NCBI RefSeq assembly: GCF_021726475.1
Contig: NZ_JAKJRU010000002.1
Span: forward strand, 558,001 to 622,000
Source: Pseudomonas oligotrophica
Lineage (GTDB): Bacteria > Pseudomonadota > Gammaproteobacteria > Pseudomonadales > Pseudomonadaceae
Length of the DNA stretch: 64,000 nucleotides
Direction of reading: 5' to 3'
A model generated the notes under the pieces. That model was not told the origin of the DNA, ran no database searches, and saw only the letters and a list, made by a program, of their open reading frames with translations. Shown piece after piece: positions 1 to 5,076 of the stretch. Made by a program: the position numbers and the translations under genes. Every line of letters starts with the position of its first letter. The stretch's first letter is position 1.

Positions 1-987
1 GACTTCCCCTGGGACAGCGACAACGCCACGCGCCTGTTCGAGATGACCGCGCGCTACGGCCTGCCGTACTTCCAGAACTTCCTCAACTCGGACATGAAGC
101 CCAACCAGGTGCGCTCGATGTGCTGCCGCCTGCAGTTGGACGTGCGCGAGCTGCTCAAGCGCGGCGGCGGGTTGTTCGGCTCGGCCGAGCAGACCGGCTC
201 GCTGGGCGTGGTGACGATCAACTGCGCGCGCCTGGGCTACCTGCACGCCGGCGACTGGGCCGGGCTGCTGGCGCATCTGGACAGCCTGCTGGAGCTGGCG
301 CGGCAGAGCCTGGAGGTCAAGCGCAAGGTGATCCAGCATCACATGGATGCCGGCCTGTACCCCTACACCAAGCGTTACCTGGGCACGTTGCGCAACCATT
401 TCTCCACCATCGGCGTGAACGGCCTGCACGAGATGCTGCGCAACTACAGCGAGGATGCCGAGGGGCTGCATACCGAGGCGGGGCGGCGCCTGGCGGTCGA
501 GCTGCTCGACCATGTGCGCGCGCGCCTGGTGCAGTTCCAGGAGGACACCGGCCACCTCTACAACCTCGAGGCGACGCCGGCCGAGGGCACCACCTATCGC
601 TTCGCCAAGGAGGATCGCAAGCGCTTCCCCGACATCCTCCAGGCCGGTTCGGCCGCGGCGCCGTACTACACCAACTCCTCGCAGCTGCCAGTGGGCTACA
701 CCGACGACCCCTTCGAGGCGCTGGCGCTGCAGGACGAACTGCAGTGCAAGTACACCGGCGGCACCGTGCTGCACCTGTACATGGCCGAGCAGATTTCCTC
801 GGCCGAGGCCTGCAAGAAGCTGGTGCGCAACGCCCTCGGGCGCTTCCGCCTGCCATACCTGACGGTCACGCCGACGTTCTCGATCTGCCCGGTGCACGGC
901 TACCTCGCCGGCGAGCACGAGTTCTGCCCCAAGTGCGACGAAGCGCTGCTGCACAAGCAGCAGGCTGCCGCGGCCGTACCGGCCTGA
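1..987 (+). CDS. nrdD: Anaerobic (class III) ribonucleoside-triphosphate reductase large subunit, C-terminal part
   Basis: This is the 3' part of nrdD; the reading frame is open from the first base, so the start lies outside the window. The enzyme reduces ribonucleoside triphosphates to deoxy forms without oxygen. Family signatures visible are the MCCRLQLD stretch, TINCARLGYL with a conserved cysteine, and a C-terminal zinc-site segment CPVHGY...CPKC (Cys-x2-His and Cys-x2-Cys). The protein stops about 20 residues after that zinc site, where other NrdD proteins continue into the glycyl-radical loop. That loop is absent here and appears in the next small ORF. nrdG follows, so the activating enzyme is co-encoded. 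Identification is firm; the reason for the split is not known from the sequence. Confidence 0.93.
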   Translation, partial: DFPWDSDNATRLFEMTARYGLPYFQNFLNSDMKPNQVRSMCCRLQLDVRELLKRGGGLFGSAEQTGSLGVVTINCARLGYLHAGDWAGLLAHLDSLLELARQSLEVKRKVIQHHMDAGLYPYTKRYLGTLRNHFSTIGVNGLHEMLRNYSEDAEGLHTEAGRRLAVELLDHVRARLVQFQEDTGHLYNLEATPAEGTTYRFAKEDRKRFPDILQAGSAAAPYYTNSSQLPVGYTDDPFEALALQDELQCKYTGGTVLHLYMAEQISSAEACKKLVRNALGRFRLPYLTVTPTFSICPVHGYLAGEHEFCPKCDEALLHKQQAAAAVPA

Positions 988-1060
988 TCCGCGACCCCGT
1001 GCCGCGCCGTTCCGTCCGGGGCCGCGCGGCATACTCCACCCCAGCAAAAGGAGAGTCACC

Positions 1061-1216
1061 ATGAGCCAAGCGACCCAACTGCCCCAGGAACTGCGCCAGC
1101 GCTGCGAAGTCTGGACCCGCGTGATGGGCTATCACCGCCCGGTGGCGGCGTTCAACCCCGGCAAGCAGTCCGAGCATCGCGAGCGCCTGCACTTCACCGA
1201 AGCGGCGGCGCGGTGA
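1061..1216 (+). CDS. Small glycyl-radical-domain protein (detached C-terminus of NrdD)
   Basis: A 51-residue ORF starts at an ATG preceded by AGGAG at good spacing, 73 bases after the nrdD stop. Its core TRVMGYHRPV followed by FNPGKQSEHRER resembles the glycyl-radical loop at the C-terminus of class III reductases, with Gly23 as the predicted radical site. The large subunit upstream ends just before this region would be expected, so the two ORFs together would make one complete NrdD. Its stop overlaps the GTG start of nrdG in a GTGA, which suggests translational coupling to the activase that would install the radical. Inference: it works as a separate radical-carrying subunit. A frameshift artefact is unlikely because it has its own ribosome-binding site. 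Confidence 0.82.
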   Translation: MSQATQLPQELRQRCEVWTRVMGYHRPVAAFNPGKQSEHRERLHFTEAAAR

Positions 1217-1908
1217 CCGCAGCGCTGCGGGTCGGGGGCCTGGTGCCCCTGACCACCCTGGATTTCCCCGACCACCTGGCCTGCGTGCTGTTCTGCCAGG
1301 GCTGCGGCTGGCGCTGTCGCTATTGTCACAATCCGCAGCTGATCCCGACCTGCGGCAGCGAGGAGCGACCCTGGGCGGAGATTCTCGCCTTCCTCGAGCA
1401 GCGCGTCGGCCTGCTCGAGGCGGTGGTGTTCAGCGGCGGCGAGCCGACCCTGCAGAGCGCGCTGCTGGATGCCATCGCCCAGGTGCGCGCGCTGGGCTAC
1501 AAGGTCGGCCTGCACAGCGCGGGGATCAAGCCGAAGCTGTTCCGCCAGGTGCTGCCGCTGGTGGACTGGGTCGGCTTCGATGTCAAGGCACTGCCCGAGC
1601 ACAGTGCGGCGATCACCGGTGTCGACGGCAGCGGCCCGGCCAACTGGAAAAGCCTGGATTACCTGCTGGAAAGCGGCGTCGATCACGAGTGTCGCACCAC
1701 CGTGCACTGGGGGCTGTTCGATGCCGAGCGGCTCTGGGAGCTGGCGCAGCGCCTGCAGCGGCGCGGTGTGGAACGCTTCGCCGTGCAGTGCGTGCGCACC
1801 GCGCGCATGCTCGACGAGCAGCTCGCCGACAGCCGCGCGCCCTACGACCAGCAGCGTCTGTGGGAGCGCCTGGATCGGCTGTTCCCGGCTTTCATGCTGC
1901 GCGGCTAG
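1213..1908 (+). CDS. nrdG: Anaerobic ribonucleotide reductase activating protein (radical SAM)
   Basis: A 231-residue radical-SAM activase that uses a 4Fe-4S cluster and S-adenosylmethionine to generate the glycyl radical on NrdD. The cluster motif is Cys31-x3-Cys35-x2-Cys38 (CGWRCRYC), followed by the SAM-binding SGGEP at residues 74-78. The GTG start at 1213 overlaps the stop of the small glycyl-radical ORF by four bases, so the three genes form one tight operon. The protein is longer than the roughly 155-residue enterobacterial NrdG, as is usual for the pseudomonad type. Confidence 0.93.
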   Translation: MTAALRVGGLVPLTTLDFPDHLACVLFCQGCGWRCRYCHNPQLIPTCGSEERPWAEILAFLEQRVGLLEAVVFSGGEPTLQSALLDAIAQVRALGYKVGLHSAGIKPKLFRQVLPLVDWVGFDVKALPEHSAAITGVDGSGPANWKSLDYLLESGVDHECRTTVHWGLFDAERLWELAQRLQRRGVERFAVQCVRTARMLDEQLADSRAPYDQQRLWERLDRLFPAFMLRG

Positions 1909-1955: not shown

Positions 1956-3332
1956 TCAGCTCCAGCCCCAGAATTGCAGGTACCAGCCATAGCCGACCAG
2001 CGCCGTCGCCGCGATCACCGGGGCGAAGGCCAGCAGCCGGCGCAGGCCGTTGGCGCCATACAGGCCTAGCACCTTCCACGCCAGGTACAGGCTCCAGGCG
2101 ATCGCGCCGAGCAGCAGCGCCGCGCGGGCCGGTTGCGCCCAGGCCAGTGCCAGGCCTTCGTAGCGCAGCAGCTTGACCGTGGTCGCCGAGAGCCCAAGGA
2201 ACAGCCCGGCGCCACCCAGCGGAATCAGCGCCAGCGCCAGATGCTCGAAGAAGTCGCCGCCGCGGCCCAGCAGCCGGGTCGAGCCGCGCAGCAGCAGCCA
2301 GAGCGCGGAGCCGACCAGCAGCGAACTGCCGAAGATGTAGAGCAGGATGACCGAGCCATCCAGCCAGGTGAAGGCATCGTTGGCCTGTGGGTAATGCGTC
2401 AGCAGCCACCAGGGGGCGTTGGCCTCCAGCGGCCAGAAGATGTCGCGCTCGACCAGCCACTCGGCCAGGGTCTGCTTGAGCGAGATGAACCAGGGGCTGA
2501 CCGTCCACTGGAAGGCGCCCATGGCCAGGCCGATCATGCCGAACAGCAGCAGGGTGCTGTCCCAGTGCCGGGTCTGCGGCTGGCTGCCGACGATGAGGAT
2601 CTCCTGGTTCGGCGAGCGCATGCTCAGTTCCACCGCGCCGCGCTGGCCGCTGCAGCGCCCGCAGGCGTGGCACTCGCTGTTGCCGCGCATGCGGCGGATG
2701 TCGATCAGCGGGGCGCAGTTGGGGGTGGCCAGGTGCGGCGGCTGGTTGGCCAGCCAGCGTTGCTCGTCGACCTTGTAGTGCAGCGGCGCCAGGCGCGCCA
2801 GCAGGCTGAACACCCCGCTGACCGGGCACAGGTGGCGGCACCAGACGCGCTTGCCGCGCCCGTAGAGAAAGCCCACCAGCATGGCCGCGACGGTGGAGCC
2901 GCCGAGGATCAGCAGCGCGGCCTGGGCATAGTCGTAGACGCTGATCAACTGGCCATAGACGGTGGTGAGGATGAACGCCACGGTCGGCCAGCCGCCCCAG
3001 CGCACCCAGCGCGGCGTGCCCCGGCCCAGGCCCTTCCAGCTGGCCCATTCGCTGAGCGAGCCTTCGGGGCAGAGCACGCCGCACCAGAGCCGGCCGAAGA
3101 AGATCATCGACAGCAGGACGAACGGCCACCACAGGCCCCAGAAGACGAACTGGGCGAACAGCGTGAGGTTGTCGAGCATGCGCGCCTGCGACGGCGGCAG
3201 GCTGAGAAAGGCCGGCACTACCAGCAACAGCAGGTAGAAGCCGACCACTATCCATTGCACGGCGCGGATCAGCCTGGCGTGGCGGCGCATCCCGTCGCCG
3301 AGTCGGGCCAGCCAGGGTGTCGCGATGTTCAT
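1956..3332 (-). CDS. ftrD: Polyferredoxin-type membrane 4Fe-4S protein of the Ftr iron uptake system
   Basis: A 458-residue membrane protein starting with MNIATPWLARLGDGMRR. It has several hydrophobic segments, two cytoplasm-facing Cx3CP motifs (WCGVLCPEG and WCRHLCPVSG) and a CHACGRC cluster motif, the layout of NapH/NosR/RdxA-like electron-transfer proteins. The start at 3332 overlaps the ftrC stop by four bases (ATGA). In Bordetella and Brucella, FtrD is the ferredoxin-like partner of the FtrA/B/C iron importer, thought to take up electrons released when Fe(II) is oxidised for transport. The same four-gene order is seen here. The family is certain; the Ftr role rests on context. Confidence 0.85.
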   Translation of the reverse strand: MNIATPWLARLGDGMRRHARLIRAVQWIVVGFYLLLLVVPAFLSLPPSQARMLDNLTLFAQFVFWGLWWPFVLLSMIFFGRLWCGVLCPEGSLSEWASWKGLGRGTPRWVRWGGWPTVAFILTTVYGQLISVYDYAQAALLILGGSTVAAMLVGFLYGRGKRVWCRHLCPVSGVFSLLARLAPLHYKVDEQRWLANQPPHLATPNCAPLIDIRRMRGNSECHACGRCSGQRGAVELSMRSPNQEILIVGSQPQTRHWDSTLLLFGMIGLAMGAFQWTVSPWFISLKQTLAEWLVERDIFWPLEANAPWWLLTHYPQANDAFTWLDGSVILLYIFGSSLLVGSALWLLLRGSTRLLGRGGDFFEHLALALIPLGGAGLFLGLSATTVKLLRYEGLALAWAQPARAALLLGAIAWSLYLAWKVLGLYGANGLRRLLAFAPVIAATALVGYGWYLQFWGWS

Positions 3333-4186
3333 GCCGGCTCCGCGGCCAGCGGGCGCGGTGGGCGCGGCCGCAGCCACAGCCAGACCGCCAGCCAGTAGGC
3401 GGCCATCACCAGCACCGCGGCCAGCGACGGCATCGCGCGGTAGCCGGTCAGGCCGGCGAGGGTGCTGCCCAGGGTGCTGCCGTCGTCCAGCAGGGCGGAG
3501 CTGTCCCACAGCGGATCGCCGAACACACCGTAGAGTTGCTCGGGCAGTTCCATGCCCATCAGCTGGCCGGACAGGCGGTCCAGCCCGGCCATCAGCAGGG
3601 CGGCGCCGAGCAGCAGGAGCAGCACTTCGCTGACCTGGAAGAAGCGCCGCCAGCTGAAGAAGCGGCTGCCGGCCTGCAGCACCGCGTAGCTGACCAGCGC
3701 CAGGACGAAGCCCAGCAGCCCGCCGATGACGAAGCCGGTGAGCGCCTGGCCCTGCTGCTGGTTGCCGATGCCGTAGAGGAACACCACGGTCTCGCTGCCC
3801 TCGCGGCCGACCGCCAGCATCGCCAGCACCGCCAGGCCAACGCCGCTGCCCTGGCTGAGCTTCTCGGCGGCGCTGTTCTGCAGGCTGGCCTTGAGCGTGC
3901 GGCCGTGCTGGTGCATCCAGCCGACCATGTGCAGGATCAGTAGGGCGGCGGTCACCAGCATGGCGCACTGGAACCACTCCCCGGCACTGCCGGCCAGCCA
4001 TTCGCCAGCCTCCAGCACGCCCCAGGCCAGCAGCAGGGCCAGGCCCAGACCGCCGGCAACCCCGCTCCAGAGCATGCGCAGCGCGCTGCCGGCGTCGGGT
4101 TGCTGGCGCAGCCAGGCATGCAGGATGCCGATGACCAGCAGTGCCTCGATGCTTTCACGCCAGACGATGAACAGGGATTGGCCCAT
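3329..4186 (-). CDS. ftrC: FTR1-family high-affinity iron permease
   Basis: A 285-residue inner-membrane permease with about seven hydrophobic segments and the two family RExxE motifs: RESIE at residues 10-14 and REGSE at 128-132, whose acidic and arginine side chains carry Fe(III) through the membrane. It sits between the cupredoxin gene (22-base gap) and ftrD (4-base overlap) in a four-gene minus-strand operon. EfeU is the closest alternative name, but no EfeB-type peroxidase gene is present, so the FtrABCD type fits better. Confidence 0.9.
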   Translation of the reverse strand: MGQSLFIVWRESIEALLVIGILHAWLRQQPDAGSALRMLWSGVAGGLGLALLLAWGVLEAGEWLAGSAGEWFQCAMLVTAALLILHMVGWMHQHGRTLKASLQNSAAEKLSQGSGVGLAVLAMLAVGREGSETVVFLYGIGNQQQGQALTGFVIGGLLGFVLALVSYAVLQAGSRFFSWRRFFQVSEVLLLLLGAALLMAGLDRLSGQLMGMELPEQLYGVFGDPLWDSSALLDDGSTLGSTLAGLTGYRAMPSLAAVLVMAAYWLAVWLWLRPRPPRPLAAEPA

Positions 4187-4207
4187 GGTGGTCTCCTCGG
4201 GATGCGA

Positions 4208-4543
4208 CTACTTGGCGACGATCTCGCCTTCCGGCAGGTCCAGGTGGAACTCGTCGAAGAACGGATAGCGGCCTGGCTTGAGCGGGTGGATCACCACGAA
4301 GGAGGTCACGCCCGGGGAGAGCACCTTCTCCACTCGCAGCGGCGTGCTCTCGAACTCGGTGGGGCCGCTGCCGGCGTTGTGCACGACGATCTTGAAGCGC
4401 TGGCGCGCCGGCACCTCGATCACCGAGGGCTCGAAGTGGCCGTCGCGGATGGTCAGTTCGAAGGTGGGCAGGCCCGCCTGCGCGCCGGCGGCGAAGCCGG
4501 CGAGCAGGGCGGCGCACAAGGCGCGACGCACGGGCATGACCAT
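4208..4543 (-). CDS. ftrB: Periplasmic cupredoxin-like protein of the Ftr iron uptake system
   Basis: A 111-residue secreted protein with a signal peptide in the first 23 residues (hydrophobic core, AGAQA cleavage region), then a small beta-rich cupredoxin-like domain of the EfeO-N/FtrB type. The usual Cys-His-Met blue-copper triad is not evident; conserved acidic and histidine residues near FFDEFHLD are candidate metal ligands. FtrB is proposed to oxidise Fe(II) at the entrance of the permease. The ATG shares one base with the ftrA stop (TGATG), so translation is probably coupled. Confidence 0.82.
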   Translation of the reverse strand: MVMPVRRALCAALLAGFAAGAQAGLPTFELTIRDGHFEPSVIEVPARQRFKIVVHNAGSGPTEFESTPLRVEKVLSPGVTSFVVIHPLKPGRYPFFDEFHLDLPEGEIVAK

Positions 4544-5076
4544 CAGTAGCCGCCTTTCTTGCCGATGCCGGCGTAGGTGAACTCGTACTTCAGCTCGCAG
4601 GCCTCGAACCAGGGACCGACGCCGGTCTCCTTGTCGGTATGGCGGCCGAACATGCCGTGGCCGGCACCCGGCGGCAGGATCTTGTAGGTCAGCTGGTACT
4701 TGCCCGGGCCGAGCAGCTTGACGTTGTCGCCATAGTGCGGGCCGTCATTGGCGACCATCGGATGGAAGTCGCCCTTGATCACCTCGTCCGAACCCTTCTT
4801 GCGCAGCTCGTACTGGATGCCGAGGTAGGGTACGAAGCTGCCTTCCTGCCAGCCGTTGGGGTTGCCTTCCAGCGCGCTGATGTCGGCCTCCAGGTGCACG
4901 TCGGAATCGGCGGCGGCGCGCATCAGCCCGGCCGGGTCCATCTCCACCGGCTGCAGGTACACGGCGCCGACTTCCATGCCGCCGCACTGCTGGGGTTCAC
5001 CGATGGGGTATTCCTTGGCCTGGGCCAGCGGAGTGAGCAGCAGGGTCGCGGTGGCGAGCATGACGGGATAGCGCAT
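4543..5076 (-). CDS. ftrA: P19/Tp34-family periplasmic iron-binding protein
   Basis: A 177-residue periplasmic protein with a signal peptide ending near Ala20 (AQAKEYPIG). The mature part matches the P19/Tp34 family: GMEVGAVYLQP, DVHLEADI, HPMVANDGPHYG and FGRHTDKETGVG, where Met, His and Glu residues bind copper and iron. It is the first gene of the ftrABCD operon. A Fur-like box lies about 50 bases upstream of the start, consistent with induction under iron limitation. Confidence 0.88.
   Translation of the reverse strand: MRYPVMLATATLLLTPLAQAKEYPIGEPQQCGGMEVGAVYLQPVEMDPAGLMRAAADSDVHLEADISALEGNPNGWQEGSFVPYLGIQYELRKKGSDEVIKGDFHPMVANDGPHYGDNVKLLGPGKYQLTYKILPPGAGHGMFGRHTDKETGVGPWFEACELKYEFTYAGIGKKGGY

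Follow-up and report, generated by a model that had tools for sequence, protein, structure and literature searches.

The closest described relatives of the enzyme considered here are the class III ribonucleotide reductases (RNRs) of the NrdDh subclass, known from T. maritima and N. bacilliformis. In T. maritima NrdD, the glycine that bears the radical lies on a C-terminal loop, which follows a zinc ribbon and reaches into the barrel (passages of PMC4493059). The large chain examined here resembles the subclass, group NrdDh4 included, in having a barrel, a Cys/His zinc ribbon, an MCCR motif, an NrdG partner and non-cysteine residues at the tip of the finger loop (same passages). Of the NrdDh4 markers, MCCR is present; Ile359 of T. 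maritima aligns with a leucine, and the next residue is phenylalanine, which is the tip residue of the group. The difference from NrdDh as those passages of PMC4493059 describe it lies in the radical loop, which is here a separate gene.

Small, free-standing glycyl-radical domains that pair with a large chain are known from another enzyme, pyruvate formate-lyase. YfiD/GrcA of E. coli and Y06I of phage T4 are activated by the enzyme's own radical-SAM activase, and one of them is phage-borne (excerpts of PMC8683613). In the same excerpts the YfiD authors count only two spare parts as validated, both for pyruvate formate-lyase, and allow for possible further ones serving different glycyl-radical enzymes (PMC8683613). 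Pyruvate formate-lyase has a loop of its own and the spare part serves after damage, whereas the large chain described here has no loop at all. The 51-residue protein that supplies the loop has no match to the radical domain of pyruvate formate-lyase in a Pfam search up to E 1, which returned NRDD and one sub-threshold unrelated family.

RNRs assembled from pieces are also known. The class II enzyme NrdJa/NrdJb of P. aeruginosa, from the same bacterial family, is encoded by two required genes, but NrdJb serves in dithiol exchange and carries no radical; the large chain here is an NrdD by NCBIfam and Pfam and not an NrdJ-type barrel. Phage RNR genes such as nrdA-a/nrdA-b of Aeh1 and nrdD of phiAS4 likewise encode their chains in fragments (PMC3653736, in part). 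The breaks in those genes either go with a mobile endonuclease or have no known origin, and the relevant portions of PMC3653736 describe no loop-only gene. A literature search, with most subscription journals and supplements outside its range, found no description of a split class III RNR or of loop-only genes in phages. A split class III RNR may therefore be new, although the small protein already goes by the name nrdD in databases.

Gene structure of the locus

The window is a stretch of 64,000 nucleotides from Pseudomonas oligotrophica. The features concerned are as follows.

1..987, plus strand: nrdD, class III RNR large chain, last 328 codons; PRK08270 1125.5 bits, model 4-653 of 684
883..936, plus strand: zinc ribbon of NrdD, ICPVHGYLAGEHEFCPKC; aligns with the zinc-site region of T. 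maritima NrdD
1046..1053, plus strand: Shine-Dalgarno-like AAAAGGAG, upstream of the ATG of the 51-residue ORF
1061..1216, plus strand: 51-residue glycyl-radical-loop protein, RQRCEVWTRVMGYHRPVAAFNPGK..., PF13597 model 531-562, E 3.8e-8; proposed second subunit of a split NrdD
1213..1908, plus strand: nrdG, radical-SAM activase of the NrdG2 type, TIGR02495 E 7e-64; GTG start inside GTGA

The complete nrdD encodes 672 residues from a GTG start upstream of the window. The product matches the ATP-cone and NRDD families of Pfam, the latter (PF13597, 579.4 bits) over model positions 2-528 of 562, and exceeds the cut-offs of the NCBIfam models TIGR02487 (445.9 bits) and PRK08270. As NRDD ends at 528 of 562 and PRK08270 at 653 of 684, the part missing from the large chain is the radical-loop end. 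The reading frame closes after the zinc ribbon, with its Cys/His motif, and a short tail, the C-terminal end being SICPVHGYLAGEHEFCPKCDEALLHKQQAAAAVPA-stop. After 73 further bases, and in a different frame, comes the 51-residue ORF, which matches NRDD above the curated cut-off and PRK08270 over 648-682 (E 1.3e-5). Its stop codon overlaps the GTG of nrdG as GTGA, and the activase thus adjoins in the same cluster. The two ORFs together span the NrdD models nearly end to end (Pfam 2-528 and 531-562; PRK08270 4-653 and 648-682). A profile search of the whole genome with NRDD found one core and one loop match, and no second NrdD or NrdD-type radical loop. The C-terminal glycyl-radical loop expected of a class III enzyme is present in the gene pair, on a separate chain, and absent from the large chain alone.

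The original prediction, made from the letters of the sequence, had anticipated this arrangement closely. It held that NrdD ends shortly after its zinc-site cysteines without a radical loop, that a separate ORF of 51 residues with its own ribosome-binding site supplies that loop, that this ORF overlaps nrdG by GTGA (nrdG starts at 1213, inside the stop of 1061-1216) and that the two ORFs make one complete NrdD between them, and each of these statements agrees with the model coverage and coordinates given above. It added that a detached radical domain, if functional, would have to dock with the large subunit. Neither of the two refutations it had named was borne out. The first paired a full-length NrdD elsewhere in the genome with a lack of conservation of the small ORF; such an NrdD was searched for and not found.

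The 51-residue protein alone has no PDB match up to E 1. The best match to the locus among the named records listed is S. stutzeri RM2 (92%). Further along the window, minus-strand ORFs at 3329-5076 may form an FTR1/P19-type iron-uptake cluster with a cupredoxin.

Conservation and spread of the separate loop gene

NrdD was found in 45 of 56 genomes of the genus, and all 45 have a core ending at model position 528-533 followed by a second match that reaches the model end. The remaining 11, two of them about 70% complete, have no NRDD match. A stop codon lies between core and loop in all 31 genus loci checked by script (the locus itself and L004-L033). One genus genome (G047) carries on a second contig an intact NrdD of another type (L158) beside the split enzyme. 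In the family, 53 of 148 genomes have an NRDD match and 95 have none, some of the matches being partial or consisting of one match with in-frame stops. The distribution of the class III system is patchy within both genus and family, a point against the two-chain reading set out below. A scan of named genomes gave at least 589 loci, the best 80 of which are all titled Stutzerimonas, Pseudomonas or Pseudomonadaceae and include P. aeruginosa PA7; the small gene follows a stop codon in all 80. Ten named Pseudomonadaceae genomes, PA7 among them, hold one core and one loop only, and in three of the ten, again with PA7, the two form one match with an in-frame TGA. The stop codon separates the two parts in 111 of 111 script-checked Pseudomonadaceae loci (L003-L113, where some loci are the same genome entered twice), a recurrence that excludes a chance arrangement.

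Beyond the family, NRDD matches occur in 30 of 321 genomes of the class, 36 of 244 of the order, 57 of 398 of the phylum and 94 of 300 of the order of genome G972, these draws overlapping, and split and E. coli-type intact forms are both found among the matches listed. Further cases come from annotated plasmids of Cupriavidus, Bradyrhizobium, Shinella, Sulfuricystis and the campylobacterotan Sulfuricurvum kujiense. In Thiothrix the loop gene and nrdG are present, and NrdD is open in one frame only in part. Script sorting of 186 loci, with repeats of the same genomes, gave 158 split, 9 intact, 15 other NrdD or unassigned and 4 without NrdD. The extent of the split, which the original prediction had asked after, runs from every NrdD-bearing genome of the genus (45 of 45) to several proteobacterial classes and the Campylobacterota. 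Public annotation calls the small protein, of 57-66 residues, plain nrdD, a name that conceals the split. A solo loop gene for 69 residues on the Allochromatium vinosum plasmid pALVIN01 (L184) is also annotated nrdD; it adjoins a CHAP-domain gene, with neither nrdD nor nrdG beside it.

Gene order, reading frame and substitution pattern all bear on whether the small ORF is a gene in its own right. In 126 split loci with the loop found in the same stretch, drawn from Gamma-, Beta- and Alphaproteobacteria and Campylobacterota, the loop gene is always on the nrdD strand; a Shine-Dalgarno-like site precedes it in 125 (a loose pattern with no shuffled control), and nrdG follows within 200 nt in 122, being not found in 3. 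The frame of the loop relative to nrdD is 0, 1 or 2 in 27, 44 and 55 loci respectively, and the gap from nrdD stop to loop start reaches 413 nt. The varied gaps and frames across related genomes rule out a local sequencing frameshift, the second refutation that the prediction had named. They also count against a single polypeptide made by stop-codon read-through or frameshifting, in which case the enzyme would not truly be split. Such a product might be imagined in P. aeruginosa PA7, P. flexibilis and P. fluvialis, where the parts share a frame with one TGA between them, but a start and a ribosome-site-like sequence of its own precede the loop in almost all copies, and in two genomes the loop gene stands with nrdG far from nrdD, at about 9.5 kb (G1008) and about 2.2 kb (G1189). 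Read-through or frameshifting is accordingly very unlikely. That the loop keeps company with nrdG when nrdD is apart speaks for a small protein that is a chain in its own right and is linked to the activase. A third candidate for such separation, G1275, with loop and nrdG on another contig, was dropped as probably an assembly break, since only about 170 bases or fewer separate the end of nrdD from the edge of its contig, and the loop begins roughly 320 bases inside the second contig.

The gene structure, homology, conservation, protein-level constraint and nrdG linkage are direct observations. Across 80 Pseudomonadaceae loci, pN/pS is 0.088 for the 35-codon loop, as against 0.18 for the 35 NrdD codons just before the zinc ribbon, and it rises to 3.2 and 2.5 in the two wrong reading frames of the loop DNA. 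The small ORF is strongly conserved at the protein level, and its conservation across related genomes is the reverse of the other half of the first refutation. A decaying relic or a chance ORF might be suspected from its shortness and from records that leave it unannotated (no listed gene under H7, H14 and H18; the plasmid gene tables are incomplete). Set against the constraint, the recurrence over several proteobacterial classes and Campylobacterota, and the match to a curated model above its cut-off, this explanation is hardly credible.

A predicted two-chain enzyme

The small protein is most likely an obligate radical-bearing subunit, judging from the sequences compared. We put the probability at about 0.87 that the class III RNR is split into two obligate chains of which the 51-residue chain is the glycyl-radical subunit. 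The cluster would yield NrdD, the small protein and NrdG, with the large chain contributing the ATP-cone, the barrel and the zinc ribbon. NrdG would cleave S-adenosylmethionine and abstract a hydrogen from the glycine of RVMGYHRP in the small protein, either alone or in the complex. The loop would dock in the barrel of NrdD, next to the zinc ribbon, and the radical would be handed to a cysteine of the SMCCR motif of NrdD, whereupon reduction of NTPs would start. Oxygen would then break only the 51-residue chain, which is cheap to replace. From homology with T. maritima NrdD we infer that NrdG loads the radical on a barrel-docking small protein; the site of the radical, the docking, the order of activation and the advantage in repair are all predictions of this kind. 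AlphaFold2 gave a poor model (mean pLDDT 61.4, pTM 0.54) for the TGA-read-through chain of one locus (L074) with 54 further rows.

A radical on a glycine of the large chain, with the small protein only an accessory or assembly factor, has to be weighed against this enzyme of two obligate chains. Siedow et al. in 1999 reportedly found that a change of Gly650 in Cupriavidus necator NrdD abolished both activity and oxygen-dependent cleavage, and are said to have assigned the radical to Gly650. The annotated C. necator large chain has 676 residues; by count, residue 650 falls on the glycine of CPTHGYLAG, which bears a faint resemblance to the CGYLG loop of E. coli-type enzymes. That residue lies in the large-chain zinc ribbon, so the reported assignment would conflict with a radical on the small chain. 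The next C. necator gene encodes 66 residues and carries RVMGYHRP. Either the radical resides on the ribbon glycine, or replacing that glycine disrupted the ribbon. The intact relatives L148, L160, L161 and L186 combine the zinc-ribbon motif and an RV.G[YF] loop on the same polypeptide, and the small protein hardly varies in its WTRVMGY core. For T. maritima, the radical is placed on Gly621 of the C-terminal loop, and zinc is bound by the ribbon (passages of PMC4493059). A radical on the large chain is, on these grounds, improbable.

The consensus of the loop core is RQxCEVWTRVMGYHRP. Its cysteine, which precedes the glycine by eight residues, is shared by all 52 distinct Pseudomonadaceae loops and all 41 other split loops (93 of 93), and by 55 of 59 distinct solo loops from the first of two viral scans described below, loops with fewer than three residues upstream being omitted from these counts. 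It occurs in three of nine intact enzymes (L118, L185 and that of Actinomyces oris) and is absent from the other intact relatives. As a guess, it could be a tether, an extra zinc ligand or a redox switch; a Cys3His set comparable to that of T. maritima is already found in the large chain. L118 and L185 are Acidiphilium and Acidithiobacillus plasmid genes with insertion sequences near by and a longer linker. In a quick tree of 66 NrdD cores they fall among the split enzymes (support 92, the branch not starred), and these single-chain genes look as if they were re-fused from a split form. The tree, which includes 12 Pseudomonadaceae representatives and omits L126 for its insertion, needs six changes between split and intact labels, of which the starred branches force at least two.

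Jordan et al. (1999) reportedly failed to demonstrate class III activity in extracts of Pseudomonas, from cultures that had received some oxygen, and this too counts against the two-chain reading. The P. aeruginosa strain PAO1 grows poorly without oxygen when it lacks nrdD, and an nrdDG clone has been used to complement the mutant (sections of PMC4860495). The whole class III system thus seems to work in vivo in this relative, the locus read here being that of PA7 and the growth data those of PAO1. If the two-chain reading is right, cloned nrdD from Pseudomonas or Cupriavidus should be inactive without the small gene, and the assignment of the radical within the large chain may need re-testing. 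Oxygen cuts a glycyl-radical chain at the radical, a one-shot weak point for which a 51-residue carrier would be disposable, and the installation of a radical could be studied on a tiny protein.

Solo loop genes in phages

The wide occurrence of the split, the tie of the small gene to nrdG rather than to nrdD, the cysteine typical of split loops and solo copies in phages all lie beyond what the original prediction had seen. A scan of viral contigs with the 51-residue protein gave 71 loci (L187-L257), and 69 of them have no NrdD or NrdG ORF in flanks of up to 6 kb on each side. In 50 whole records, which may be fragments (21 of the 71 being short or near-duplicate and left out), the loop was found in all 50, the NrdD core in 2, the NrdG2 model, used for the NrdG search, in 1, and a class I/II RNR large subunit in none. 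A second scan with an alignment as query gave 133 relatives, of which 80 were kept (L271-L349 among the loci; about 38 contigs shared with the first scan), and none of the 80 has NrdD or NrdG in flanks of up to 3 kb on each side. Eight of ten large flanking ORFs match phage structural or replication families. The scan of neighbours covered 131 of 172 script-picked ORFs; portal, terminase, integrase, endolysin and tail genes are among the families listed for them, and no nucleotide-metabolism cluster is seen among the 25 of 117 PHROG and 25 of 41 Pfam families listed.

The solo genes are themselves constrained. For 57 non-redundant loops of the 71, leaving out duplicates and the two with NrdD, pN/pS is 0.28 (with pS near saturation) as against 1.4-1.5 in shifted frames, and 41 of the 57 have a start with a Shine-Dalgarno-like site. 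In two phage loop proteins (L191 and L196) the N-terminal part is rich in cysteine, and with it the NRDD match covers 513-562 and takes in zinc-ribbon positions; L212, L216 and L228 also have a cysteine-rich N-terminal extension. The 51-residue protein of the window matches PHROG 4132, labelled 'unknown function'. Among 50,697 deposited phage records there is one match up to E 0.01, inside an ANMV-1 virus gene annotated anaerobic ribonucleoside triphosphate reductase, and the solo genes have thus so far been seen in uncultured phages and prophages.

Some bacterial genomes carry loop genes of the same sort. One with a split NrdD (G1360) has an extra loop gene beside integrase, tail-fibre assembly and clamp-loader genes; another (G1370) has two, whose neighbours match PHROGs of unknown function or ParB/methyltransferase-like ones, or nothing. 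A solo loop gene in G451 (L138) shares its stretch with SSB and RecT genes and with the end of a barrel from a class I/II RNR. Tentatively, and at somewhat under even odds, the detached radical subunit may be a trans-acting, exchangeable part, and tailed phages may carry the loop alone to re-arm or boost the split class III RNR of the host, or to commandeer its activase, when infection takes place without oxygen. The prophage-borne loop of G701 counts against a spare part, because the only NrdD of that genome is intact and of the E. coli type. It is also possible that the phage loop is a decoy for NrdG or for NrdD. The split NrdD loop and its phage copies make a natural spare-part candidate in the RNR family, and if phages do use the loop in this way, the spare-part principle would extend from pyruvate formate-lyase to another glycyl-radical enzyme.

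A separate scan for NrdD cores in phages gave five loci; the loop is in a separate ORF in four, and the gene order in one (L260) is loop-NrdG-NrdD, the loop again standing with nrdG. In L253 (554-4372), L261 (415-4797), L262 (1826-4876) and L126 of genome G319, the NrdD matches are broken by long in-frame insertions that look like inteins. The radical loop is in a separate ORF in all four, and in L253 the NrdD core also runs on into a second ORF.
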